A DNA stretch of 64,000 nucleotides. It comes from an uncultured Croceitalea sp. (GTDB lineage Bacteria; Bacteroidota; Bacteroidia; Flavobacteriales; Flavobacteriaceae). The stretch covers positions 310,001 to 374,000 of the forward strand of contig CANNDD010000003.1 in NCBI GenBank assembly GCA_947503285.1, written 5' to 3'. Within the stretch, counting starts at the first letter, position 1. Each line of letters starts with the position of its first letter. The translations under genes and the position numbers were made by a program. Positions 50,516 through 64,000 of this stretch are shown here, in pieces. The notes under the pieces were generated by a model that saw only the letters and a list, made by a program, of their open reading frames with translations, was not told the origin of the DNA and made no database searches.

Positions 50516-53500
50516 TTAATTTTCAATTTCAAGCTTTCTTACCAAGTCAATCAATCCATCATCGACGGTTGTGCCGATTTTACTCATCTCCTTTATGGTT
50601 ATAATCGCATCATTACTTAAGGTTATATTATTGATTGTTCCACTTTCAACTTGAAAGATTGCTTTCCCGTTCATGTCCTTTGCAAGTTGGATAAGTTTTT
50701 TGATTTCTTGTTGAGCCGATGAAAAAGCCGTGTTTGTGCTTATTTTGGCATCATGATACAACACATCTTCCAAATCAATTTCGTTTGAGTTGTTTTTTCT
50801 TTTGAAGAAGAGGAAATCCGGCTCTGGACTCCCCTCATTGGGTACTTTTATCTTAACTTGTTTAGACATCACGGTATAACCGGCATCGTAGATGGACAAA
50901 TAATAACTTTTCAGCGTTGAAGGTAAATCTGAATTAACGATTCCTTGCCTGCTAGTCCAAGCTGTTTCTAGAATTACTTCAAATTCATTCTCCAGAATTC
51001 TACCAAGCTTACTTCCAAATTGGCTATCAGCCAGGATATTTTTCATTTTTGATCCATCGGAAAGGTCTAAATCTTCCAATACCTTTACAAAATTATCAGG
51101 TAAATCGATGGAGCCAACGTTGGAATTCGAAACCTTGTACGCACGTGCTAGACCCAGCTTATAGTACCATACTGTATGCATTTGGGAGAAGTGGTCAAGT
51201 AACCTTAGGTTGGCGACCAATTCATCAGATAGTCTGGGATACTTTCCAAGTGCATCGTCTAATTTTACCACCAAATCGTCTGACCAATTATCGAGTTTTG
51301 ACAATACTTCATCTGGTAATTTCCTAACGTTTCCATATCTAGACCATCTTCCTGTAGTACCATCTAGAATCCGTACATAGACCTGACCCTCATAATCAAC
51401 AATTTCAATATTTTGTTTCCCATCGATATTGACGATATCGACATTCCTCAGCTCAGCACCCTCTAAAATGGTGTAGTCAGTGGCATTTTCTGGCAACACC
51501 CTTTTAATAATCAATCCATCATTTGTTATCTCAATGAGTTCCGTACCATCACTTGCTGAAATTTTGTTTCCATCAATACGTATACCTCGAACATTATTCA
51601 ATTTTTTGGCCCCTATCTGCGTCAATGTTGATAATTGGTCCAACAAGCCCCGGGTTTGCACAAGCAGTTTTCCGGCCCCTTTACCAACTGAAGCAGCACC
51701 GCCAGTGGCTATGGCCAAAGCAATTTCAGAAACAATTACAAAGAGTATTTTTCCTTGATTATAACGACCGAAATTATCTGGAGACAAGGTTGTATCTAGA
51801 TATTCTTTAATGGCAATGTCAATGGCCTCAGCTAGTTTTTCGCGGAGCTCCGAATTGGCGGGTGCAGTCAACTCGTTTAGAAATTTAAGTACTTCTATAG
51901 TCTTTTCCCTGGTTTTTTGGGCATCTTCTTTCTCTTTATCCGAACATCCAATCTTAGTAATGGAGAGATTGGTGATACCAAAAAATCCTTTTATCCTATT
52001 AACACCATCAATGAAATTACCGTAAGCTACGCTACCTTGCTGTTTCAAGTCAAGGAGCAAATCATATACAGGTTCCAACTTTTCATTAAAGTAATCTCCG
52101 AATTCCCCACCTTTTTCTATGATATCGGCTAAGCGAATAATTTCCTTAAATCGCTGAATACTTTCCAACAGGCCATCTGGAATATCGATTGTGTTAATAC
52201 CATTTATAGCCATATTTGCTAGTATCTGGCTAAATTCTGATCCAAACTTTGAATACTCTTGTATGATAACCGAAGGATCTTCGCACCAAAAAAGCCGTGG
52301 ACCATAGGCGTCCGAGAATGAAATCAATCCTTCTGCCAATTTATAGACATCTATGACCGTATCTATACCGCCATCTACGACACCAGCTAGAAGAGCGGGG
52401 TCAGCTGCAGTATATATCAGACCTACTTCCACATCTTTCCATAGACATAGGGGCACATGATAATTGTTAGAGTCGAGCTGGCTATCACTTTGGTTCAGGC
52501 AGGCAAAAAGACTATCAAAATACGGGATGTATTTGGTGAATTCGGGTAGGACGTCCTCATCACCCACTTTCAATCTAATCTTTAAGGTTTGGTTTTTCAA
52601 ATCTCCTTGATATTGTTTCAATAGCGACCTTAGATATTGCACATCGCCATAGCTATTTACATCAAGAACATGGTCTATATCCGCTATTCGGGTATCTTCT
52701 TTTGAAAGTGCTACATATACATTTTCAAACTCGTTCAACCTGGTAAAAAACTCATCCAAGAAGCCAAGTTCCTTACCATTCAAAGTATATTCTATTCGTT
52801 TATAAAGCCCTTTTAAATCACCGTTTTTAAGACAGTTGAACACATCTGAGGGCACATCAATTCCTATAGTCGTCGAGATGTCTATTGCATTTACGCCCGG
52901 GCTATTTACAACAAGACCTTTTTTAATGTAAGACTCATTATTGGATGCGGTTACTCCTGTATTATCGGCATCAACATCGTCTCCAATGTATTTAGCCGTA
53001 AACAATTGGGGAGCAGCACAATTGCCCGCGTTGTTTGCAAAAGCGAAATACACCGTTGCTCCTTCATTTAAGTCCATAGACAAGGACTCCCTTCTATAGG
53101 GAGTATCTCTTTCTAAAGAATACCCTAAAAAATATTTTTGATCATCCTGCGAACCATCATTATCATTGACTTTTGCAATATATCTATCGTTATTGATAGT
53201 AAAACCAACTAGAAAGCCATTTAGAAAAGTAATATCCCTTGTGGAGCCTTCCAGCGAATATATCGTACCCGATAAGGAGACAAAACTCAAAACGTCACTA
53301 TCAGAGGTGTTTGGTATTTTTGGAAGAAGAACATCGTAATCAACACCCTCCCAAGGTTTTGCTTCCCCTTCCTCATCGTCATCAAACAAATTGATTCTCA
53401 GCCCGTCAAAGCCCATGGCTTCCCAATCCCGTATGGCCAGTTCATTGCCAGGCCCTTTGTCGTCCATCAGCCAGTTCGTTTGACCACCGGTACCTTCAGG

Positions 53501-56110
53501 ATGGCTTAATGCAAAAACGCCATGACCCACCTCATGAGCAATCAAATCGGCCACAGTGCGCTTACTCTCTAGCTTAGTAGTGTTCAGGTTTATCGGAAAA
53601 ACAAAACCAAACTGGGAGTTTCTAGGCATAAAGCCTGCTATAGTGCCAGGTTGTACGTCCTCATCAAATACGAAAACATAGTACGAATTGTCATTATACT
53701 GACCTGAATTCGCCTTAAAGTCTTGGTAGAAATCAATAAAACTTTGGGGATGTCTCGTCAGCAAACCACTCTCCGTATAGCGTAGTTCAGAGGTATTGCC
53801 CGTGTAAGTGCTACCATCGATAACGTTCAATTGGGCTCCCCCCTCGTTAAATTTTTGGGCCACTTGCGCCTTTATGCCCGAGATCGAAGCTCCATTTACC
53901 GGAACTAGGGTCACATTGGTCCGTTCTAAGGGTCGTAAATGGTGTATAAAGAAACTGGAGACCACCACTTGTTTGTCATCCGCAGTCTTATAGGTGATTA
54001 CCGCTTCTTGACTGCGGTAACCCTTATGGCCACTTACCGTAACCTTAATTTGGTTCTTACCTCTATCCTTCACTTCTGTTTCGATTGCTAAGCCCTGTAC
54101 CGTCTTGAAAATGAGGCTATCAATGGACAAGGAATCGTTTTTGAAGGTAGCCTCTACAATAAAGGTATCGCTGGCCCCATTTTTTACTGCTTTATGTATC
54201 GGATAAAAATCCCCTCCGCTGCTTAACTTAACTTTAGGATAGGTATTCTTTTCGTGAGGGCTATCAGCCACGTCATGACCATAGCTTTCTTCACTTTTCA
54301 TGGGAAAGGAATACGTGAACGAGACCAACGAATCCTCTATTTCCACTACCGCCGGACTGTCTAAGGTACCGTCACTTCCAGACCGTACGCCAGTAGTATT
54401 GCCGGCCACTGCAGCTCCACCTTCGGCAGTTGCACCTTCTATTTCGGCCTTACCGTTTTCATCGATACCCCATACTTGATTATTTCCGGTAATCGTGTAG
54501 GTGTCCCCTTCATCGTAAGGGAAGGTTTCTTCGACAGGGTTACCGTTCTCATCGGTCCCTATAACCACAATTTCCCCATCGCGAATTTCGACCTTATCAA
54601 TATCAAAGTCAACGGGTTCGATATAGGTATGATCCCCTCCATTGATGGCATCCCCTATATCGTCCACAATATCCCATGGATCTATAATACCCCCCAAGTT
54701 GGGATCGTAAACAGTAACTACATTGCCTTGGGCCAGTTCTTTATTTTGGTTGATGAAAATATTGGTAAACTCCACCGCGACCTTGATGCTCTTTAGATAT
54801 GGAATCGTTACATAGCCTTTACCATTAAAATAACCATTGCCCCCGTTTACCTCTAGTACGGTGACCGGGAAATCCCCAGCGGTAAATTTTTCATCCACTT
54901 CCAAGCTTTCCAAAGGTACTTGGTTACTAACATCGATATTTGGGGCTATACCGCATTCATAGGTACTGTCATCATCGTCAAAAAGGTTGGTTCTGAACGT
55001 TTGAATTGTTGAATATTCACTTTCTGAGAGCACACATTTTTTAGATAACTGGTATTCGTATTCCGTACCCGGTTTTAAATCCCATAACGTAATCATTTCG
55101 CCAGTGGTCTTGGAATAAAACCATTCCCCCCCGCTATCTTTTTGACGGTATCGTATACTATATTCCGCAGGGTCTTGCGAAAAGTCCGTCCATAAAATAT
55201 TGGCATTGGTAGCTCCCTTGACTTCATCGGTTACCGTGGAAGGTAATTCGCAGCGTGTAGTGCTACCGAACACATAAATCTCACTGAAGCCTTGGTTATT
55301 AAAGACCCCAATTTCTTCGGCACCCTGCATCGCCCTGGCCTGAATACGCCACGCATAATTCTTATCGGGTAACAATAATGGATCTGATGGCCCATATACA
55401 TAGGTAGTGGCCGTGGTAACCGTGGTAAAAAATGGTGGACTGCTTAGAAAAGCGGCCTGATGGTCCACCTGATTATCCCATATCTCGACAATACTCAATT
55501 CATATTCCACATTGGAAACGTTGATATGCCTTGGAGTCCATTGAAAGACAATGTTCTGGGGATTGACCTGATCAACAATCGTTCTATTCTGGGGATTGAC
55601 CAAAATGGGAGGGTCATTCTGAAAAACAACCGTATTTACGCAAGACCTGTTACTTAGACGGTTGCCCGTCAAAACATCAAAGACCTCAAAACAAAATTGA
55701 TAGGTACCCTCAGGTATAGGTTGTCCATAAACATTTGGGGAAATACCGGTAATGTTCTCAAATCGAAAATAAGGCGCAAGATCGATATTGTTCAAAACCA
55801 AGGGTAGCCCCCCCTCTAAGAATAGGGGTGCCGCACCATTGACAATTTCATTGCTTTGAAAAGAAATACCGTTTCCTTCGAAAGAGGCACGTAAACGAAT
55901 CCCCCTATTTTGTATGGTCAAATCATTTAAGGTGATTTGAACGCGAAGCGGACCATTGATAGCAGTCTCGTTCGCATAACTTGAAAAATATACGGGAGTT
56001 GGGGGAATGGCCTGTGGTACAATTTGAACAGGAAAAGACTGTCCGAAAACGGTAGCGATCTGTATAAAAGACAGCACAAGAATTATGAACAAGAGTGAGG
56101 GTCTTTTCAT
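50516..56110 (-). CDS. Giant multidomain protein: TANFOR-like N-terminus, HExxH, C-terminal PD-(D/E)xK-like
   Basis: The 1864-aa precursor has a signal peptide (LLFIILVLSFIQIATVFGQ). Residues ~24-270 follow the pattern PQAIPPTPVYFSSYANET... EGTYQFCFEVFDVLTGNRLS and match from memory the TANFOR domain; ~280-390 is a fibronectin-III module. Near residue 859 stands DLIAHEVGHGVFALSHPEG, a zincin-like HExxH followed by NWLMDD. A helical middle follows, then a Gly/Ala hydrophobic segment (EIALAIATGGAASVGKG). At the C-terminus, EPDFLFF (~1760) and VLYHDAKIS (~1787), then a Gln helix, resemble a PD-(D/E)xK nuclease core. This layout suggests a polymorphic toxin, but no small immunity gene follows. 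Second gene of the operon. Confidence 0.75.
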   Translation of the reverse strand: MKRPSLLFIILVLSFIQIATVFGQSFPVQIVPQAIPPTPVYFSSYANETAINGPLRVQITLNDLTIQNRGIRLRASFEGNGISFQSNEIVNGAAPLFLEGGLPLVLNNIDLAPYFRFENITGISPNVYGQPIPEGTYQFCFEVFDVLTGNRLSNRSCVNTVVFQNDPPILVNPQNRTIVDQVNPQNIVFQWTPRHINVSNVEYELSIVEIWDNQVDHQAAFLSSPPFFTTVTTATTYVYGPSDPLLLPDKNYAWRIQARAMQGAEEIGVFNNQGFSEIYVFGSTTRCELPSTVTDEVKGATNANILWTDFSQDPAEYSIRYRQKDSGGEWFYSKTTGEMITLWDLKPGTEYEYQLSKKCVLSESEYSTIQTFRTNLFDDDDSTYECGIAPNIDVSNQVPLESLEVDEKFTAGDFPVTVLEVNGGNGYFNGKGYVTIPYLKSIKVAVEFTNIFINQNKELAQGNVVTVYDPNLGGIIDPWDIVDDIGDAINGGDHTYIEPVDFDIDKVEIRDGEIVVIGTDENGNPVEETFPYDEGDTYTITGNNQVWGIDENGKAEIEGATAEGGAAVAGNTTGVRSGSDGTLDSPAVVEIEDSLVSFTYSFPMKSEESYGHDVADSPHEKNTYPKVKLSSGGDFYPIHKAVKNGASDTFIVEATFKNDSLSIDSLIFKTVQGLAIETEVKDRGKNQIKVTVSGHKGYRSQEAVITYKTADDKQVVVSSFFIHHLRPLERTNVTLVPVNGASISGIKAQVAQKFNEGGAQLNVIDGSTYTGNTSELRYTESGLLTRHPQSFIDFYQDFKANSGQYNDNSYYVFVFDEDVQPGTIAGFMPRNSQFGFVFPINLNTTKLESKRTVADLIAHEVGHGVFALSHPEGTGGQTNWLMDDKGPGNELAIRDWEAMGFDGLRINLFDDDEEGEAKPWEGVDYDVLLPKIPNTSDSDVLSFVSLSGTIYSLEGSTRDITFLNGFLVGFTINNDRYIAKVNDNDGSQDDQKYFLGYSLERDTPYRRESLSMDLNEGATVYFAFANNAGNCAAPQLFTAKYIGDDVDADNTGVTASNNESYIKKGLVVNSPGVNAIDISTTIGIDVPSDVFNCLKNGDLKGLYKRIEYTLNGKELGFLDEFFTRLNEFENVYVALSKEDTRIADIDHVLDVNSYGDVQYLRSLLKQYQGDLKNQTLKIRLKVGDEDVLPEFTKYIPYFDSLFACLNQSDSQLDSNNYHVPLCLWKDVEVGLIYTAADPALLAGVVDGGIDTVIDVYKLAEGLISFSDAYGPRLFWCEDPSVIIQEYSKFGSEFSQILANMAINGINTIDIPDGLLESIQRFKEIIRLADIIEKGGEFGDYFNEKLEPVYDLLLDLKQQGSVAYGNFIDGVNRIKGFFGITNLSITKIGCSDKEKEDAQKTREKTIEVLKFLNELTAPANSELREKLAEAIDIAIKEYLDTTLSPDNFGRYNQGKILFVIVSEIALAIATGGAASVGKGAGKLLVQTRGLLDQLSTLTQIGAKKLNNVRGIRIDGNKISASDGTELIEITNDGLIIKRVLPENATDYTILEGAELRNVDIVNIDGKQNIEIVDYEGQVYVRILDGTTGRWSRYGNVRKLPDEVLSKLDNWSDDLVVKLDDALGKYPRLSDELVANLRLLDHFSQMHTVWYYKLGLARAYKVSNSNVGSIDLPDNFVKVLEDLDLSDGSKMKNILADSQFGSKLGRILENEFEVILETAWTSRQGIVNSDLPSTLKSYYLSIYDAGYTVMSKQVKIKVPNEGSPEPDFLFFKRKNNSNEIDLEDVLYHDAKISTNTAFSSAQQEIKKLIQLAKDMNGKAIFQVESGTINNITLSNDAIITIKEMSKIGTTVDDGLIDLVRKLEIEN

Positions 56111-56119
56111 TGGGTTGAA

Positions 56120-58627
56120 TTAGTTCTTGTTTATGTACCTAAGCTCAAAGGTATCAGGATCCACTAAATCGGTGGACAATTTGTAATGATAATCGATGAA
56201 CTGTATTTCTAAAAGTAGTTTTAATTCATCGATATCCCTGTTTTTTTCATACGTCTGGTACAATTCCATCGATGTATTTCTTTTAAAATTGGATAAATAG
56301 CCCTTAGCATTCTGAATATCAGCTAATTCTACATAGTTTTCAAATTGTTTTTGCATCCACCGATGTCCGACTAATTTGCGTAGCCGTTGTTCTACGTCTT
56401 CTTTCAATTTCTCATAGCCGTCTTGTGTTTCTTCGTCCTGTTCGGTATATTCTTTCAACGGTTTATTATGCAATGGATGTTCGTCAAGCTCGGTTTTCTT
56501 ACTTACGAATAGCCTTTCTAAAACGATATCGATCCCGCTCATATCACCCCTGATTTTTTCCACGACCTCGTAAAGGGTCTCATCATAAAGCTTTAAGAAA
56601 TCACCATAGCTATAAAGATTGTCTAAAAATGTTAAGGCCCGCTCTTCGTAAACAGTCTTACGTTTTTGTTGTTTGACCGTGGTGAGGTCTATTTTTAGTT
56701 CATCTTTTTTGAATGAAGGTATATTTCTGAATTTTGGGCTGCCATATACATTGGTTAATTGTGTATTAATATCCCGTATGGTTCCCCTATATGTCACCCC
56801 CCTGTGTCTAAATGCTAAAATATTCTTGTTCTGCCCAAGGGTTTTTTCCCTTCCCTTAAGCCTGAGCTTGAAATTATCAAAACTATAGCTGTATCCAAAG
56901 GTCATGGTAAAATCCCTATTACTACCAGTCTGTGCATTTCTGAAAAGGGAGAGTACATTGAGGTTTAGGTTATGTTGTTCAAACAGGGTGTAACTCGCCC
57001 CCAATCTAAAATTATACACACTGCTTTGCTGCTCTGCATTATTGAATGAGGTATTGTACGAGCTTGAGAAGTTCGTTCGTAAAGTCTTATCAAAAAACTG
57101 TTTCCCAATGGATAATGTAGGTCCTAGAATAAGGTTCGAATCTTCCATTCCGGTTTCATTCAGAGAAGCATTCCCTGCCAGTGAGATATTCAATGCCTCT
57201 TTTGGATAGTTCCAGGTATAAGAGGCAATGCCATTATAAAAATTACTTAGACCACCTTCGATGGTCTCGCCTTGTTGCTGGTTATTGGAGTTCTGATAGA
57301 TGATATTAAGGTTGGCCGTCTGTTGTTTTGTTTCAGATCGTTTGGTGATGTAATTGACCCCCAGACTAGCATTTTGTGATATTTGCCGATAATTCAAGGT
57401 GTCTACATTATCAAATGCCCCAACCTGATTTATAAAATCGAATTGATCTTGGATGTTTGTAAAGGATTGGAAGTTCGAATAAGATCCATTGATACCCAAA
57501 CGTTCGGAAGCCGTGTAATTCAGATTTATCGAACTAACTACCCTTTGCAATTCGGATGATTTGGTATCATCAAGGTTATCTTGCTGTAAACCGGCATTTA
57601 CGGAAACATTTAATTTATTATCAAAAATGTTTTGACTTGCATTGACGGTAATATTCTCAAAATCATTATTGAAAAAATAAGCCCCTAAAGTTCTGTAATC
57701 GGGATCTATGCGCTCATAGGCCACGCCCAATACCCCATTACCAGCAGGATAGCTCAACGAGGCATTAAGAGCATTGAAATAATTGGTCGTTATATTTTCG
57801 TCCAATAAAAAATTGAGTAAGCCATTTTCTGATCTAGGGTCATTCAGCCCGGTATCTTCGGTTATGCCCGAAATGGCATACTCCACACGAAACCTTGCCT
57901 TATCGAATAGGGTAAATTCGGTTTCAAGAGATACCACGGCATTGTCATTAGGGGTAATATTGGCAGCAATTGGAATAGGGTTTTCAAGGGATTCCTCATC
58001 ATCCGTAGCTTTGAAAAGAATAAGCCCCAATCTAAATTTTTCGAACGCATATGACGTTTTCAACCCGTAACCTATCCGCCTATAAGCAGCCATAGCCTCA
58101 GGCATTTCGGTATTGAATTCCGTTGCCCTAAGCAATCGTCCGTACATGGCGCTTATCTGAAAAGGGCCTTCTGGGGTAAGGTCAACCCCTGCACCGGTAA
58201 ATTGATGCCCTGCAAGGGTATAAGGTGAAAAAGTCATATTGACATCACCGATATGGGCAGCAATCCATTTATAAGAAGGATTAAGGCTCAATCGATTGAA
58301 TTTAAAGGGATTGGCAAAATTAAAATCCTGATTGGAATATGTAAATGACAATGGGATGTTGTATAATCCTGCAATATTAAAATTGAGATTACCATTGAGA
58401 AAATAGGTAAAGGACTGTCTATTGGCCGTACCATCATAAAAAACACCATTCGCGGAAATACCGCCGTTATAGCGAAGCAATTTTTCCTTTCCTACATTTT
58501 CAAAATTGACACTTTGGCACAATGCAACACCACTCAATAACAAGAACGCAATGAGCACTATAGTAGAAAACCTGTTGCAGTCAGTATTCAGTTTCGCTAG
58601 TTTTGAGAAGCTATAGTAACCAATCAA
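56120..58627 (-). CDS. Outer-membrane beta-barrel protein with helical C-terminal domain
   Basis: The 835-aa precursor has a long signal region ending in LLLSGVALCQSVNFE. Residues ~50-600 are a dense series of amphipathic strands with aromatic girdles, alternating with Asn-rich turns (for example LSFTYSNQDFNFANPF, LNLNVLSLFRNAQTGS, FTMTFGYSYSFDNFKL), suggesting a large barrel of 20 or more strands without a TonB plug. The last ~220 residues are charged and helical (KLKEDVEQRLRKLVGHRWMQ), probably periplasmic coiled coil. It is the first gene of the five-gene operon, 9 bases before the 1864-aa gene, and may be the pore or anchor for the secreted partners. Confidence 0.78.
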   Translation of the reverse strand: MIGYYSFSKLAKLNTDCNRFSTIVLIAFLLLSGVALCQSVNFENVGKEKLLRYNGGISANGVFYDGTANRQSFTYFLNGNLNFNIAGLYNIPLSFTYSNQDFNFANPFKFNRLSLNPSYKWIAAHIGDVNMTFSPYTLAGHQFTGAGVDLTPEGPFQISAMYGRLLRATEFNTEMPEAMAAYRRIGYGLKTSYAFEKFRLGLILFKATDDEESLENPIPIAANITPNDNAVVSLETEFTLFDKARFRVEYAISGITEDTGLNDPRSENGLLNFLLDENITTNYFNALNASLSYPAGNGVLGVAYERIDPDYRTLGAYFFNNDFENITVNASQNIFDNKLNVSVNAGLQQDNLDDTKSSELQRVVSSINLNYTASERLGINGSYSNFQSFTNIQDQFDFINQVGAFDNVDTLNYRQISQNASLGVNYITKRSETKQQTANLNIIYQNSNNQQQGETIEGGLSNFYNGIASYTWNYPKEALNISLAGNASLNETGMEDSNLILGPTLSIGKQFFDKTLRTNFSSSYNTSFNNAEQQSSVYNFRLGASYTLFEQHNLNLNVLSLFRNAQTGSNRDFTMTFGYSYSFDNFKLRLKGREKTLGQNKNILAFRHRGVTYRGTIRDINTQLTNVYGSPKFRNIPSFKKDELKIDLTTVKQQKRKTVYEERALTFLDNLYSYGDFLKLYDETLYEVVEKIRGDMSGIDIVLERLFVSKKTELDEHPLHNKPLKEYTEQDEETQDGYEKLKEDVEQRLRKLVGHRWMQKQFENYVELADIQNAKGYLSNFKRNTSMELYQTYEKNRDIDELKLLLEIQFIDYHYKLSTDLVDPDTFELRYINKN

Positions 58628-59152: not shown

Positions 59153-60124
59153 TTAGCCATTAATTTGACTGAGAATAGTTGGGTCGTCAATCTTATCATC
59201 AGCTGCTAATAAAAAGGCCTTACTTAAAACTAATGACAAACCTCTATCTCCTTCAAAAGGTAAAAACAAGTCCTGTGTATTTTTATCCTTACCTCGGGCA
59301 GGAACAATACATAGATATTGATCGTTAGGCTCCATCAAGATATTTGTACTACCTATATGAATCTTGTAAACTCTTTTTGTACCCTTAATCTTAAGAAACT
59401 TTCCATCAATCGTTGCTACCTTATTTATTTTTAATCTGGGCACTAATTTTTCTAGTATCGCTTTTCTTGTCTTTGCTACCTCATTTAGGTCTCCAAACGA
59501 ATAACTAGTCCAATAATCTCGATATTGAGGCAACCCTCCATTATCTCTCCACTCTGGATCATTACCAACACTTGCCACACCAACAAACAGGTCTACATCT
59601 CGCATTATTTCTGACAACACCATTTTTGGGATTTCAACCAAATCTTTTACCTCACCACTTTCATCAATAAAGCGCACTTGATCCGTTGATACATAGTCCC
59701 AGATACCCGCATCATTAAAAGCATCATCGGCATAAATTTCATTAATCCAAAATTGTGCTTCCAAACCATGTTCTTTTAAAGCAATTTTTGCGACTTCTCC
59801 GTCCCGACCATCATCATAAGCACCCAACAATGAGTAGCGCCATCCTCTTATAGCTGTAAGAGCATTGAATTGATGCTGTTTCAAAAGGTGGGCTGCCATT
59901 CTATTACTGTAGGACTTCGTATTTATCTCCGCATCAGTTAAAATATATACTTCCCGATACACTTGTTTTAATGCCTGTTTTATTTGTAATTCCTCTAACT
60001 TATTTCGCCAACTCAAAACTTCACTAACTTCCGAATTTATGGGGTGCCATAGCCTTACTTCAGTCATGTCTGTAATCCAAGATAACTCATTACTATTGAT
60101 GTCTTTCCACTTTTTTCTTGCCAA
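59153..60124 (-). CDS. DUF4132/MolR-like protein, C-terminal part in the shifted frame
   Basis: This 323-codon frame starts at a TTG but matches only the C-terminal part of DUF4132-type (MolR/YehI-like) proteins, the segment now called DUF7737: LSWITDMTEVRLWHPI, KQVYREVYILTDAE, SNRMAAHLLKQHQF, IRGWRYSLLGAYDDG, MRDVDLFVGVASVGNDP, IHIGSTNILMEPNDQYLCIV and LPFEGDRGLSLVLSKAFLLA. It overlaps the 3' end of the N-terminal fragment by 61 bases in the -1 frame and continues it after the A6 run at 60116-60111. It is therefore very likely not a separate protein. Function of the family is unproven; members occur with MoxR ATPases and vWA proteins in conflict-type loci. Confidence 0.8.
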   Translation of the reverse strand: MARKKWKDINSNELSWITDMTEVRLWHPINSEVSEVLSWRNKLEELQIKQALKQVYREVYILTDAEINTKSYSNRMAAHLLKQHQFNALTAIRGWRYSLLGAYDDGRDGEVAKIALKEHGLEAQFWINEIYADDAFNDAGIWDYVSTDQVRFIDESGEVKDLVEIPKMVLSEIMRDVDLFVGVASVGNDPEWRDNGGLPQYRDYWTSYSFGDLNEVAKTRKAILEKLVPRLKINKVATIDGKFLKIKGTKRVYKIHIGSTNILMEPNDQYLCIVPARGKDKNTQDLFLPFEGDRGLSLVLSKAFLLAADDKIDDPTILSQING

Positions 60125-61755
60125 AGAGCAGCAATAAAACTATCACCTTTTTTAAACTCCCAAACCAAATCTTTCGCAACAAAATTTACAAGACCATGAT
60201 TCAAATAAAATTTAGAAAAATTTTCAAAAGTCCAAATTCTGTCATACAAATAGGAGCGATCAATGCGATCTCTTTGGGCTGTTAAATACTTTTTAATCTG
60301 AGCCACATCCTCTTTAGCGCGTTTATGTGTCTGTTTATGCTTTGCCGAGTTTTTAATAAATGAAGGTGTAGTTTTTTGCATACCACCACCTGGTTTTATC
60401 CAACTCAATATCACTTTGCCTAAGCCTTCAATTTTGAGTTCCAGCGAATAGTCATCAAAAGAATAGCTTTTAAATCCATGAACAAGTCCAAAATCAGGAA
60501 TCGACAATTCTTCTATTTCCGATGTTGAAACTCCTAATTTTTCTGAGGATGACTCAATATACTTTTCAATAAGCTTTTTTGTATTGTTTTGCTTTATCTT
60601 CAACTTTAGTCGAGACAAATGACTTATACCCTCTAATCCTTTTGTGTTCCCTAGCACATATATACAAGCGTTTCCAACACCCGCAGCTGTGGGTCCAACT
60701 CCAGGAATTTTCTTAAATGATCTTTCTGTAAGTTTCGCTACAAGACTTAAAGTTTTTGAATCGTGGAATTTGGATAGGCTCCAAACTAGACCCTTTAAAA
60801 AAATTGTATTCTTTTCGTGTAAAAAATCATAGCTTGAATATTCGTAAGTAGTCCCATCTCCATAATCATGTACATGAGGGGTCTCTATTTCTTTTAAAGG
60901 GATTACAAATTCCAGCCACGCATGCACTAGTTTTTTGTATTTCGCCGATCCTATATCATCCATCAAAGCACTAGTGCTTTTCAAATATTTAGCACTTGGT
61001 TTGGAACCTGTTGCTTTTATAAACAAATGAAAAAGAGAATACCAATGATTTTGTTCTTCTAATTTCAGTTTTTCAATTTCCGGGTTTACGATTGCTGCCA
61101 GCCGGTCATCAGGTAAATTATAAGGCGCCACTGAACCGTCTGTGTTCTCGCTTTCAAAGACCAGTTTTTCAATCTTAACTTTGACCTTTTCAAGATCTGT
61201 ACCCCAATAATATTTGGTTTGCTTCAATTGAGGCCATTTTAACATACCTTGTAGAAAAACTTTTAATTCATCGGTTACACCTTCTTTTTTAATAATTCGC
61301 TCAAGCTGTTGTATGGCAAAACCGATTGGCCAATCAACAAATTTCTTCTTATGGCTCTCATCAGATACCTTAAACTTCTTTATCAATTCAATAACTTCAC
61401 TAAGGCTAAATCCCAAATTACTACGCATCAACAAGGCAAATAGTTCAGATCGAACATACTGCTGTTGAAAAGCATTATTCGGATGAGTGTAGTTCTGATT
61501 CTTGCGATGAAGGCGGTTATAATAATTGATCGGTTCAATCAAATAAAAAACTAGTTCCCTTTTGAACTCATTGTCTTTTGATTTAATATCAATGTAGCTC
61601 TCAAGTTTTCCCATTGATTTATCGCTCCAAAAACTATTGTTGTTATTTGGATAATATTCCTTTATCAACCTATTAATTACTTCCTCTAATTGACTATTAA
61701 TCTGATAACCTTTATTGCCTGAAAATATATTCGTTAACTTATCTTTTAATCCCAT
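60064..61755 (-). CDS. DUF4132/MolR-like protein, N-terminal part, frameshifted
   Basis: The ATG at 61755 follows the upstream stop as TAATATG; a TTG at 61767 would overlap it. The 563-codon product is helical in its first 350 residues and carries the DUF4132 core later: LGVSTSEIEELSIPDFGL, KHKQTHKRAKEDVAQIKKYL, and FYLNHGLVNFVAKDLVWEF. After GDSFIAALWQE the frame continues for only 18 unrelated residues (SGKTSIVMSY) to a stop, while the -1 frame continues the homology (KKWKDINSNELSW). One extra A in the A6 run would fuse both parts into a protein of about 870 aa. Either a mutation or -1 slippage explains this. Confidence 0.78.
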   Translation of the reverse strand: MGLKDKLTNIFSGNKGYQINSQLEEVINRLIKEYYPNNNNSFWSDKSMGKLESYIDIKSKDNEFKRELVFYLIEPINYYNRLHRKNQNYTHPNNAFQQQYVRSELFALLMRSNLGFSLSEVIELIKKFKVSDESHKKKFVDWPIGFAIQQLERIIKKEGVTDELKVFLQGMLKWPQLKQTKYYWGTDLEKVKVKIEKLVFESENTDGSVAPYNLPDDRLAAIVNPEIEKLKLEEQNHWYSLFHLFIKATGSKPSAKYLKSTSALMDDIGSAKYKKLVHAWLEFVIPLKEIETPHVHDYGDGTTYEYSSYDFLHEKNTIFLKGLVWSLSKFHDSKTLSLVAKLTERSFKKIPGVGPTAAGVGNACIYVLGNTKGLEGISHLSRLKLKIKQNNTKKLIEKYIESSSEKLGVSTSEIEELSIPDFGLVHGFKSYSFDDYSLELKIEGLGKVILSWIKPGGGMQKTTPSFIKNSAKHKQTHKRAKEDVAQIKKYLTAQRDRIDRSYLYDRIWTFENFSKFYLNHGLVNFVAKDLVWEFKKGDSFIAALWQEKSGKTSIVMSYLGLQT

Positions 61756-61756
61756 A

Positions 61757-62149
61757 TTAACCTCCAACTAATTGAGTTAGTTTGACAAAACTTATTTCCG
61801 TAGTAGCTCCAACAAGTACTTCCTGATCTAAATCCTCAGCTTGTTTATCGTCGATTAGAATAAAGTAGCCGTTCTTTTGAAAGGCATCTAAAGCAGTCCA
61901 GATTTGTTTTTCTACATCGATTTTCTTTTCCCTTCTCTTTAGTCGAAACCCGTTTAAAGTTTTTTCCGCTTCAGAAGGCTGAATAAGTCCTTTAAAATAT
62001 TCAGGTAGTTTTTCATTATAGGATTTCACTTCAGAAGTTACACGAGCGGCAATAAGATCTTTGACCGTCGTGCGTTCGTTTTGAACTGCAATCTCTATTT
62101 CATTTAGGATATCTCCAGAGAACGTGGCATCTTTTACTGTTATTACCAT
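61757..62149 (-). CDS. Small beta-grasp-like protein ending in Gly-Gly
   Basis: The 130-aa protein begins with strands and a helix like ubiquitin-fold proteins (MVITVKDATFSGDILNEIEI, then TTVKDLIAARVTSEV). A helical insert with LNGFRLKRREKKIDVEKQI follows, then FILIDDKQAEDLDQEVLV and a last strand ATTEISFVKLTQLVGG. The exact C-terminal LVGG is what MoaD, ThiS and ubiquitin-like modifiers need for activation. The resemblance is by pattern; no E1, E2 or JAB peptidase gene is in the visible part. It lies directly upstream of the DUF4132 gene (one base between stop and ATG) and 59 bases after the WYL gene. I recall similar small proteins beside DUF4132 genes in other bacteria. Confidence 0.65.
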   Translation of the reverse strand: MVITVKDATFSGDILNEIEIAVQNERTTVKDLIAARVTSEVKSYNEKLPEYFKGLIQPSEAEKTLNGFRLKRREKKIDVEKQIWTALDAFQKNGYFILIDDKQAEDLDQEVLVGATTEISFVKLTQLVGG

Positions 62150-62208
62150 ATCATATTTTTCTTGAATTTATTCATTTTTTGACTTTCTACGATAATTTCT
62201 CGATGAGA

Positions 62209-63225
62209 TTAATTTAAATCGTAGTAACTGAAAGCTTTTACCAATTTCTTAGCAATTCGCTTGCGAAGTCTTTCAGGTTGAACTACTTCAATAGCATCAC
62301 CAAAACCTAAAATCAAACGTTCCAATTCAAAGTTGATTTTCACCTTGATATTCACTTCTACACTACCATCTTCATTTTCTTTTTCAATAATCTGTGAATG
62401 ATGTAAAGGTTTGGTGATGACATAAGGAGCATTGTATTTGTCAATCCATAATTTGATATTGGAAGCCCTTTCACCTTGGTTCACGGTGACACCTACAACA
62501 TCTTTATAAAAGGTGTCCGCATCAAATTCATAATTGGAATATGGAGTTGTGAAATCATAGTCAATCGAAATGATTCGGTCAAGGGCAAGATTAACTATGC
62601 CTTTGTTCTTATTTCCCATTCCTATCAGGAACCATCGGTTATTAAACTCCTTCAGTAAACAGGGATGAAAAGTAATTACATTGGCCGTAACGGCTTTAAA
62701 AGATTTGTACTCCACCTTCAAGACTACTTTTTTCTGAATGGCTTGATAGAGTTCGTCAAGCCAATGTAATCCTTTTAGATTCTCGTTCTTATCTAAATGA
62801 ATTATGGATGATTGATGCGTCTTCTCGGTATATACTTTATCCTCTAAGCGTTGAATAATTCCCCCTAGTTCTGAAAACAAAGAAAAGTCTTTGAACTGCT
62901 TGAGCATTTCTACAGTTTCAGAAAGGACATTCATGTCGTTCTCCGTTATCGGGATATCCGTAATGGAATAATCCTCATCTTCGTATTTGTAATACTTTCT
63001 ATCATAAGCAACAATTGGAGCATTGTAACCTAGCTTATCACTCCGCATCAACTGAATATCGAGTTGCACGGTCCGTTTGCTTACATTCACTTCCCTACCC
63101 TCGTATTCATATAAGGCATCTGAACAAGCTTCTATCAAATCATTCAGAGTCCATTGCCTATAGTTATTTTGAAGGCATTTGTCAATAGCTTTATAGCGGA
63201 TAAGGGCGTTTTTGTTGAGGGCCAT
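62209..63225 (-). CDS. WYL-domain transcriptional regulator
   Basis: The 338-aa protein has an N-terminal winged HTH (LIRYKAIDKCLQNNYRQW to NVSKRTVQLDIQLMRS), a WYL domain in the middle (VVLKVEYKSFKAVTANVITF, CLLKEFNNRWFLIGM, with the fold of the Trp-Tyr-Leu ligand-binding Sm-like barrel) and a C-terminal WCX extension (RLILGFGDAIEVVQPERLRK). WYL regulators commonly control defence islands (BREX, CBASS, retrons) and sense nucleic-acid ligands. It is divergent from the RlaP-type gene, with a perfect palindrome in the 91-base gap, and leads the WYL - GG-tail - DUF4132 operon. Confidence 0.9.
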   Translation of the reverse strand: MALNKNALIRYKAIDKCLQNNYRQWTLNDLIEACSDALYEYEGREVNVSKRTVQLDIQLMRSDKLGYNAPIVAYDRKYYKYEDEDYSITDIPITENDMNVLSETVEMLKQFKDFSLFSELGGIIQRLEDKVYTEKTHQSSIIHLDKNENLKGLHWLDELYQAIQKKVVLKVEYKSFKAVTANVITFHPCLLKEFNNRWFLIGMGNKNKGIVNLALDRIISIDYDFTTPYSNYEFDADTFYKDVVGVTVNQGERASNIKLWIDKYNAPYVITKPLHHSQIIEKENEDGSVEVNIKVKINFELERLILGFGDAIEVVQPERLRKRIAKKLVKAFSYYDLN

Positions 63226-63316: not shown

Positions 63317-64000
63317 ATGATGAAAAGTAAACTTAAAAATCTAGCAACTGACAAGAAAGTAGACATACTCTTTGCTTGTGAATCTGGAAGTAGGGCTTGG
63401 GGCTTTGCTTCCCCAGATAGTGATTTTGATGTTAGATTTGTATATACACATCCAATAGAGTGGTATTTGTCAATCTCGGAAAAACGAGATAGCATCGATA
63501 TAATCGATGGTGATTTTGATGCGGTCGGTTGGGAGCTCAGAAAGAAACTACGCTTGCTTAAAAAGTCGAACGTACCTGCATTGGAGCATTTGTTCTCACC
63601 TATAACATACATCGAAGAAAGCACATCCATAAAGGAACTGCGAGCGATAGCTAAAGATTGCTTTTCTCCTGTAGCTTGTATGTATCACTATTTAAGTATG
63701 AGCAAAAAATATGAAGAAAAGTTGACTGGTGAAACTGTAAAACTAAAGAGTTTGTTTTATGCATTGCGAACAGCTTTGGCGGGCAAGTGGATACTTGAAC
63801 ACAATACGATGCCACCTGTTGTTTTTAGCAAGATGTTATCTCTTGTAAAAAGGGGTGAGGAAGACGAAATAAGAAACTTGATGGTTATAAAATCGGAGAA
63901 TAACGAAAGTTATTTACATTCCAGAAATGAGAAAGTCGTAAATCTTATCACAAGTGTTTTAGTTAATAACGAAAAGTTTGCAAAATCTCTTTCAGGGGGA
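63317..64000 (+). CDS. RlaP-type predicted nucleotidyltransferase, cut by the window end
   Basis: The frame from the ATG at 63317 (a second ATG follows at once) is open to the window end, 228 codons. It matches the RlaP (RNA-ligase-associated nucleotidyltransferase) family: ACESGSRAWGFASPDSDFDV contains the GS-x-A-W-G and the D-x-D metal motif, followed by RFVYTHPIEWYLS, DAVGWELRKKLRLLKKSN and LEHLFSPITYI, and a helical C-terminal part (FYALRTALAGKWILE). The family is predicted to add nucleotides to RNA or protein and occurs beside RNA repair and toxin-like genes. Divergent from the WYL gene. Confidence 0.83.
   Translation, partial: MMKSKLKNLATDKKVDILFACESGSRAWGFASPDSDFDVRFVYTHPIEWYLSISEKRDSIDIIDGDFDAVGWELRKKLRLLKKSNVPALEHLFSPITYIEESTSIKELRAIAKDCFSPVACMYHYLSMSKKYEEKLTGETVKLKSLFYALRTALAGKWILEHNTMPPVVFSKMLSLVKRGEEDEIRNLMVIKSENNESYLHSRNEKVVNLITSVLVNNEKFAKSLSGG

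Follow-up and report, generated by a model that had tools for sequence, protein, structure and literature searches.

A small Gly-Gly-tailed protein paired with DUF4132-DUF7737 suggests an undescribed bacterial pathway of ubiquitin-like or sulfur-carrier type

In a stretch of 64,000 nucleotides from an uncultured Croceitalea sp. (Flavobacteriaceae; contig CANNDD010000003.1, positions 310,001 to 374,000; hereafter the window), a cassette of three minus-strand genes encodes a WYL-domain regulator, a small protein ending in Gly-Gly and a DUF4132 protein that carries a DUF7737 region (Table 1). Our comparison of this cassette with its relatives suggests that bacteria have an undescribed pathway of ubiquitin-like or sulfur-carrier type, the best supported reading being a module composed of a ubiquitin-like protein (UBL, the small protein), an activating enzyme of E1 type and DUF4132-DUF7737 as the acceptor, with conjugation or sulfur transfer as its chemistry. 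An earlier note, made from the window sequence, had proposed that the small protein could be conjugated or could serve DUF4132 as a partner of ubiquitin-like or sulfur-carrier type, and had named three outcomes that would speak against it: a fold unrelated to beta-grasp, a Gly-Gly varying among homologues, and no conserved co-occurrence with DUF4132. The proposal is supported, as none of the three is observed.

Such a pathway would provide a testable function for DUF4132, for DUF7737 and for a small protein family devoid of any Pfam or NCBIfam match at cut-off, and it would connect the way in which bacteria respond to damage, and in some lineages RNA repair, with chemistry of the ubiquitin-like kind. 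No description of the UBL-DUF4132 pair was found in the literature searched, which consisted mostly of papers other than subscription ones (such as Burroughs and Aravind 2016). In the part available of PMC1779556, neither MolR nor RtcB is mentioned.

The small protein and its Gly-Gly end

Relatives of the UBL are found at fifteen loci of species-level genomes (L and G numbers are our labels for loci and genomes; the weaker matches L006-L021 lie outside the set analysed). The terminal Gly-Gly is invariant in 13/13 complete close sequences, i.e., the window and 12 loci, L022, L026 and L035 being left out as their small gene is broken or cut. Exact Gly-Gly ends also recur in Novosphingobium (LTPLKGG) and in 4/4 Deinococcus records (LTALAGG). 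At cut-off, neither Pfam nor NCBIfam has a family for the window protein; the same holds with Pfam for seven divergent relatives (L149, L127, L037, L070, L073, L123 and L115) and with NCBIfam for three of them (L149, L123 and L037).

The AlphaFold2 model of the UBL has a predicted local distance difference test score (pLDDT) of 82.6 and a predicted template modelling score (pTM) of 0.79, low confidence being confined to the last four residues. Its topology runs from two strands and a helix, through an insert made up of two short strands and another helix, to three final strands. When this model is compared with known structures by Foldseek, the best 50 of 353 matches include MOCS2A/MoaD (probability 0.98, TM-score by target 0.64) as well as SUMO2, ubiquitin, ISG15 and structure 1wgk, which we take to be Urm1. 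A PDB sequence-profile search with the small-protein alignment gives nothing meaningful. The predicted fold of the UBL is thus of beta-grasp type, as supported by topology and structural neighbours rather than by a strong score.

Pairing with DUF4132-DUF7737

In a sample of 395 genomes from the phylum, profile A1 detects the small protein in 10 and DUF7737 is present in 12, and all 10 are within the 12 (hypergeometric 3e-18, kinship ignored). As for the two remaining DUF7737 genomes, a broader profile detects the small gene next to DUF4132 in G202, and the DUF7737 match of G295 covers 40 positions only. A second sample, drawn from the class, comprises 345 genomes; the small gene stands at the same locus in all 13 of them that have DUF7737, 5 of which are shared with the first sample. 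The pairing exceeds chance.

The two genes are also close to each other. A same-strand DUF4132 is present in the stretch at 46/48 intact small-gene loci, and within 300 bases at 44/48; the gap reaches 1243 bases in L031 and 1175 bases in L074, and no partner could be scored in the stretch for L032 or for L040, which has a remnant. In G493 (L122), it is the small gene that is a remnant only. The pair exists in distant bacteria as well: it is plasmid-borne in Novosphingobium (Alphaproteobacteria), where the small gene overlaps that of an 843-amino-acid DUF4132 protein, and in 4/4 Deinococcus records, where the DUF4132 protein is 1626-1635 amino acids long. The Acetobacter locus L125 was rejected as a pair, as its upstream 132-amino-acid gene is not a relative and its DUF4132 is without the cysteine described below.

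In the DUF4132 model, made for the L024 homologue, the N-terminal half is mostly helical. Foldseek with this model retrieves weak matches only, many of them helical-repeat proteins, and a PDB sequence-profile search with the DUF4132 alignment retrieves nothing meaningful.

Another protein, of about 119 amino acids and with a GNPLFLGEERCFRI-type end, recurs beside small-protein loci of both tail classes (see below; L023:5490-5849, L035:5479-5838 and L037:5156-5422). Its L023 copy has no Pfam family over cut-off.

Two tail classes and a DUF7737 cysteine

Besides the Gly-Gly class, a second class of small proteins ends in Trp (GTYW, GSYW, GAYW, GRLW or GGW), with DUF4132 partners of 1652-1747 amino acids. 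L022, L026, L035 and L119, whose small gene is broken or cut by a contig end, were left out of this classification. In the Gly-Gly class, the small gene precedes DUF4132 in 28/28 scorable loci; in the Trp class, it comes first in 9 loci and the order is reversed in 9.

The two classes also differ at one DUF7737 column (C819 of L024, motif NDQYLC). When the C-terminal 470 residues of 49 loci are aligned, this residue is a cysteine in 28/28 Gly-Gly-labelled loci (26 with intact tails, the other two being L022 and L119, whose small genes are broken) and in 0/18 Trp-tail loci, where it is Ser (14), Asn (2), His (1) or Ala (1). A prediction was then written down before new loci were collected, and 10/10 are as predicted (9 Gly-Gly/Cys and 1 Trp/Ser). 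Without L022 and L119, the total amounts to 35/35 Gly-Gly-tail partners with the cysteine against 0/19 Trp-tail partners; these are not independent counts, because the joint loss of Gly-Gly and cysteine maps to a single branch. Two loci were omitted as duplicates (L103, on the contig of L022, and L169, the locus of L030), and two cysteine-bearing ones were kept out of the counts (L167, cut upstream by a contig end, and L168, without small gene in the stretch). The DUF7737 of the window also has the cysteine.

Weight is added to the association between cysteine and tail by Deinococcus, which retains both Gly-Gly and cysteine even though its DUF4132 is placed, over a very long branch, with the Trp clade. 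This placement comes from a quick tree in which the Deinococcus rows were flagged for an odd letter make-up.

Related proteins of 790-840 amino acids repeatedly flank the Trp-tail pair (L039, L110, L112 and L114).

An E1-like gene in the operon

In 12 relatives, a ThiF/MoeB-like gene encoding 214-240 amino acids lies directly 3' of DUF4132 (L029, L070, L104, L105, L108, L109, L119, L171, L172, L175, L176 and L178). When the count is limited to loci where the end of the small gene is intact and the downstream sequence covers 700 bases or more, such an E1 is adjacent in 11/35 Gly-Gly loci (27 and 8 from two locus sets; not the same 35 as in the cysteine count) vs. 0/19 Trp loci (Fisher p=0.005), and no E1 match exists anywhere in the Trp-tail stretches. 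L119 (broken small gene), L166 and L034 (no downstream sequence), and L032 and L040 (no scorable partner) are outside this count. Chance adjacency is negligible (2e-28, assuming about 2 such genes per 4000, our own estimate). In G763, a genome 99% complete, no ThiF-family match exists other than the operonic E1.

The L029 protein matches PF00899 with an E-value of 2.7e-66, and the three operonic E1s that were scanned resemble MoeB/ThiF, each with a score under the curated cut-off. Twenty-one residues are invariant in 12/12 operonic E1s, including the GxGGLG glycines, D55, N63, R66, Q67, K79, the DC(T/S)DN motif with C121, and C180, whose position corresponds to that of the catalytic cysteine of MOCS3-type E1s (L176 numbering). 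They cover the nucleotide-binding GxGG, Arg-Gln, Lys and Asp and the conserved cysteine of the MoeB/ThiF/E1 superfamily. In an unrooted tree, the 12 operonic E1s lie on one side of a 100/99 branch, separated from 10 MoeB-like proteins, one from the window genome and nine from eight cassette-bearing relatives. This is a second tree, from which the very long rows L142, L143 and L146 were omitted after long-branch joins in the first one. As the tree is unrooted, it does not prove a single origin of the operonic E1s.

The earlier note had suggested that an E1-like gene might be found past position 64000. It is not there: no E1 stands beside the window cassette, and the genome has a single ThiF-family match, a MoeB-like protein encoded on a different contig.

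The Deinococcus radiodurans homologue

One homologous pair has already been studied. In the D. radiodurans locus L149, the small gene is located after trxC and directly before DUF4132; from gene order and the papers' description, it corresponds to DR_A0165 (SEP068184)-DR_A0166. The pair is like the cassette family in its tail (LTALAGG) and in a DUF4132 partner with the cysteine, and differs from the proposed three-part module in being published as restricted to Deinococcus and in having no E1 match in the stretch around its locus.

The published data are taken here from the sections available of two studies. drA0165 is strongly upregulated upon DdrO depletion and is putatively in an operon with drA0166, with a site at -83, and tagged DRA0166 rises with mitomycin C in the wild type, not in an irrE mutant (PMC8533742). 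SEP068184, i.e., DR_A0165, is up after irradiation and H2O2, its deletion strain is more H2O2-resistant with higher catalase, and the protein binds thioredoxin Trx1 in pull-down (PMC9650054). In contradiction with PMC8533742, no radiation/desiccation response motif (RDRM) was found for DR_A0165 in PMC9650054. The latter study describes the protein as "only present in Deinococcus" and its C-terminal region as conserved, and independently models it as similar to 5MPO, SAMP1 3PO0, 1WGK and others; the word ubiquitin is absent from its main text. Our results show that the small-protein family is not limited to Deinococcus. As the published deletion mutant has an oxidative-stress phenotype, it makes the Gly-Gly and cysteine predictions directly checkable.

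Proposed mechanism and alternatives

We tentatively propose, with slightly less than even confidence, that the UBL is a carrier whose Gly-Gly is meant for activation, that DUF4132-DUF7737 is its regular partner and that the one is transferred to the other. The E1 would adenylate the Gly-Gly end of the UBL and might go on to bind it, via a conserved cysteine, as a thioester or an acyl-persulfide; the acyl group would then be handed to the conserved DUF7737 cysteine, DUF4132 acting as a one-protein E2/E3-like transferase or as an acceptor. The module would serve damage responses, in some lineages alongside RtcB/RlaP RNA repair. Conjugation via the DUF7737 cysteine is preferred because this cysteine tracks the Gly-Gly end and because the E1s keep cysteines of their own. 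A more detailed version, which we consider rather unlikely as a whole, is that of a new bacterial UBL pathway in which DUF4132-DUF7737 replaces E2/E3: a dedicated MoeB-type E1 would load the Gly-Gly end, the DUF7737 cysteine would accept it, and the modifier would be attached to proteins of the response to damaged RNA or DNA, including RtcB tRNA repair, the Trp class having lost the chemistry and kept the complex.

Several observations weigh against this proposal. Concerning the fold, two of the five UBL models have a pLDDT below 66, and no Foldseek match is strong, the best E-value being 0.036 and none falling under 1e-3; non-beta-grasp hits are interspersed in the list, which also contains staphylococcal superantigen-like proteins and chains of transcobalamin and haptocorrin; the C-terminal half of DUF4132 is modelled poorly, with no active site visible. 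Concerning the pairing, the pair is partly split in G813, where the Gly-Gly small gene (L032) and a cysteine-bearing DUF4132 (L168) lie apart, DUF7737 being found on two contigs other than that of L032: one (L168) has the cysteine and lacks a small gene in the stretch, and the other (L170) has a Trp-tail small gene. In Nonomuraea (L124 and L152), the cysteine is present and no small gene was found alongside, which argues either against a strict cysteine-Gly-Gly rule or for a partner located elsewhere. Concerning the tail association, the Trp class forms one clade on the DUF4132 tree, even with the C819 column masked, and Gly-Gly and cysteine may have been lost together once; the fresh loci comprise a single Trp-tail one (Fisher p=0.1 on these alone), and some counted rows share a genome (L071/L072 and L030/L166). 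Concerning the E1, the first tree, with the three long rows kept and seven operonic E1s, needed 3 changes instead of 1, and neither E2 nor JAB is found among the 10 neighbours scanned with Pfam at 9/12 E1-bearing loci, the rest being read by eye. Finally, the 157 DR_A0165 co-immunoprecipitated proteins common to all four tag versions, N- and C-terminal (PMC9650054), do not argue for tail-dependent conjugation.

Sulfur transfer comes close as a rival, since MoaD/MoeB are the nearest counterparts of the folds and E1s and some loci have tRNA genes around them. The E1 would in this case turn the Gly-Gly end into a thiocarboxylate, as occurs in MoaD, ThiS, Urm1 and TtuB, and the DUF4132-DUF7737 cysteine would use the sulfur on RNA (e.g., repaired tRNA) or on a cofactor. 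The nearest folds, which include MoaD/MOCS2A and Urm1 and are similar for the Deinococcus homologue, the MoeB/ThiF-like operonic E1s (three scanned, below curated cut-offs) and the proximity of tRNAs, RtcB and RlaP at some loci are consistent with it, as is the thioredoxin pull-down of DR_A0165 (PMC9650054). However, no rhodanese match is found in the three scanned E1s and all 12, given their length, are too short for one; there is neither desulfurase nor thiouridylase among the neighbours scanned; and DUF4132 is without meaningful match to solved structures. Taken by itself, a sulfur carrier appears unlikely to us.

It could also be that the pair is non-covalent, which we hold to be unlikely too. 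The tail would dock into DUF4132-DUF7737, Gly-Gly/Cys and Trp/Ser being two versions of the site, and the E1 would be a later addition in some lineages. Tail docking has a precedent in MoaD-MoaE; furthermore, the Trp-tail class stays paired without E1 or cysteine (0/19), and 24/35 evaluable Gly-Gly loci are without adjacent E1, which also counts against an activated carrier. A purely docked tail does not readily accommodate two observations: among the loci compared, the E1s of a separate group, in which nucleotide-binding residues and cysteines are invariant, lie beside the Gly-Gly class only, and an exact Gly-Gly end is seen repeatedly, in Deinococcus, Novosphingobium and Bacteroidota.

The proposed UBL-E1-acceptor module can be compared with known systems. 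(i) MoaD-MoeB-MoaE and ThiS-ThiF-ThiG associate a beta-grasp protein with a C-terminal Gly-Gly, a MoeB/ThiF-type E1 and a partner receiving the tail. The proposed module would have the same three components, but its partner is DUF4132-DUF7737, its UBL has an apparent insert after the first helix, its context is that of stress and RNA repair, and it includes a Trp-capped tail class. (ii) Urm1-Uba4 and SAMP-UbaA share with it a small beta-grasp protein, a single E1 without E2 and a link to tRNA and oxidative stress, whereas the operonic E1s are too short for a rhodanese domain and the operon contains a large partner. (iii) CBASS (cyclic-oligonucleotide-based anti-phage signalling system) type II, with Cap2/Cap3, and the Bil-type UBL-E2-E1-JAB operons are bacterial ubiquitin-like conjugation systems and also have an E1 next to a Gly-Gly protein; the cassette family appears to be unlike them, no E2 or JAB being found among the scanned neighbours mentioned above.

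The RNA-repair neighbourhood

The cassette had been placed by the earlier note on a tRNA-adjacent island. There is no tRNA within the window (ARAGORN 0, Rfam 0), but a tRNA array is located just past its end. There, divergent from the cassette, an RNA-repair island (G000:C3; L042:11318-19652) comprises the rest of RlaP, a second RlaP, an RtcB-like gene (468 amino acids), 15 tRNAs according to ARAGORN, and SPFH/Band-7. The profile matches are to PF01139 for RtcB (E=3.2e-36) and to PF10127 for the two RlaP (E=3.1e-70 and 8e-28); the island thus has the RNA ligase and the nucleotidyltransferase that an RNA-repair island requires. The tRNA genes are tightly packed, with 16 Rfam matches of which four score low (31-44 bits), and at least 54 Rfam tRNA matches are found in the window genome (150 of 325 candidates scored). 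The array looks like an accessory one.

RtcB-like genes are also present near the cassette in L022, L026 and L040, and pairs of RlaP in three Trp-tail loci of one genus (G117, G376 and G433), to which L077 (G433) adds a PNKP-type kinase/phosphatase. In L171 (G997, from another family of the class), SPFH, tRNA-Asp, tRNA-Phe, RtcB, the small gene, DUF4132 and E1 follow each other on one strand; SPFH is 55% identical to that of the window genome, RtcB matches PF01139 with E=6e-81, and the small gene overlaps RtcB by 23 bases in the open reading frame (ORF) call. The link to RNA repair thus exists in distant lineages. In the compared stretch of most loci, no RtcB or RlaP relative is found. In the 345-genome sample, RlaP occurs in 6/13 DUF7737 genomes vs. 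24/332 others (p=3e-4, kinship ignored); it adjoins the cassette in G000 and G117 only, and lies elsewhere in G075, G993, G1022 and G1081. As RlaP is away from the cassette in 4/6 genomes, the link is loose rather than fixed.

RNA-repair systems made of RtcB, RlaP and SPFH proteins have reportedly been described by Burroughs and Aravind. The neighbourhood is like them, with RlaP, RtcB, a tRNA array and SPFH beside the window cassette and RtcB, tRNAs and SPFH in L171, and differs from them by the added UBL-DUF4132-E1 module.

As a side observation, an 86-amino-acid RtcB-like fragment, 69% identical to the RtcB of L022, follows the E1 in L171 (L171:4727-4987), where the intact RtcB is upstream of the small gene.

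The WYL regulator and the defence hypothesis

The WYL protein had been presented by the earlier note as a member of the system, of a kind that controls defence islands. This is not supported: relatives of it were found in three of the compared loci only (the window, L022 and L026), although distant regulators could be missed, and an HTH_3 regulator is upstream in its place in L029. The WYL gene is a lineage-specific neighbour rather than a conserved member, and the cassette does not have the features of a WYL-regulated defence island.

An anti-phage defence cassette under WYL control is in our opinion very unlikely. It would fit with the position of the WYL gene, directly upstream in the window and in L022 and upstream in L026, where two genes intervene, with the PDDEXK_4 protein encoded next to the L024 small gene and the ResIII helicase that follows the E1 of L029, and with the E1-like conjugation known in CBASS (PMC10097602, in the part available). 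Nevertheless, the WYL protein is the sole PADLOC match of the window cassette, there is no PADLOC match for DUF4132, RtcB or RlaP, and one operonic E1 has partial E1-E2 matches only; the loci other than these three have no relative of the window WYL protein; 32 pattern matches in viral contigs include no small-protein relative; and the one studied homologue, that of Deinococcus, responds to DNA damage and oxidation.

Between WYL and UBL, L026 contains genes for a DUF6493/DUF7824/DUF7825 protein (902 amino acids) and a SWIM zinc-finger protein (L026:1881-5950).

The window copy

The order and spacing described by the earlier note are confirmed, with WYL, the small LVGG protein and DUF4132 on the minus strand and gaps of 1 to 59 bases: 59 bases separate the WYL stop from the UBL ORF, WYL being upstream on the same strand, and 1 base separates the UBL stop from the DUF4132 ATG. 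The large DUF4132 protein of that note is present as a region, but in this assembly it is spread over two overlapping frames (Table 1). The DUF4132 and DUF7737 profiles are both over cut-off.

Table 1. Features of the window cassette and its immediate flank
Feature	Position	Strand	Remarks
WYL-domain regulator gene	62209..63225	-	PF13280 E=5.6e-9; WCX E=2.6e-16
UBL gene	61757..62149	-	130 amino acids, beta-grasp-like, ubiquitin-like protein; C-terminal LTQLVGG
DUF4132 gene, N-terminal part	60064..61767	-	likely start ATG 61755; DUF4132 (PF13569) profile positions 4-81 (Pfam)
DUF4132 gene, C-terminal part	59153..60124	-	other frame; end of DUF4132 (profile positions 97-179) and DUF7737 (PF24879, E=3.3e-39) (Pfam)
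Overlap of both DUF4132 frames	60064..60124	-	A-run at the frame change
DUF7737 cysteine codon	59309..59311	-	motif NDQYLCIV; equivalent to L024 C819
RlaP nucleotidyltransferase gene	63317..64000	+	divergent; runs past the window end; begins the RNA-repair island

The frame change is located at the A-run within the overlap. As nine relatives have a single uninterrupted DUF4132 frame of 822-870 amino acids, with shorter single frames of 464-647 amino acids in L030, L031 and L036, the split is either a mutation or an assembly error. A programmed frameshift is unlikely: the relatives are one-framed, and the A-run is out of the canonical slippery-site register, as judged by eye.

The window copy may be inactive, since its DUF4132 is frame-broken in the assembly and no E1 is alongside. 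Whether it is a decaying, non-functional copy is evenly balanced in our view. Decay is suggested by the frame break itself, by a stop inside the UBL gene of the near relative L022, by UBL frame breaks in L035 and L119, and by the mere DUF4132 remnant beside the Trp-tail small gene of the same-genus genome G004; on the other hand, a homopolymer-length difference can come from sequencing error, and the UBL and WYL frames are intact in the window.

Two further, very large ORFs, with signal-peptide-like starts as judged by eye, adjoin the cassette: one of 1864 amino acids with fn3 domains (window 50516-56110), and one of 835 amino acids with no Pfam match (window 56120-58627).

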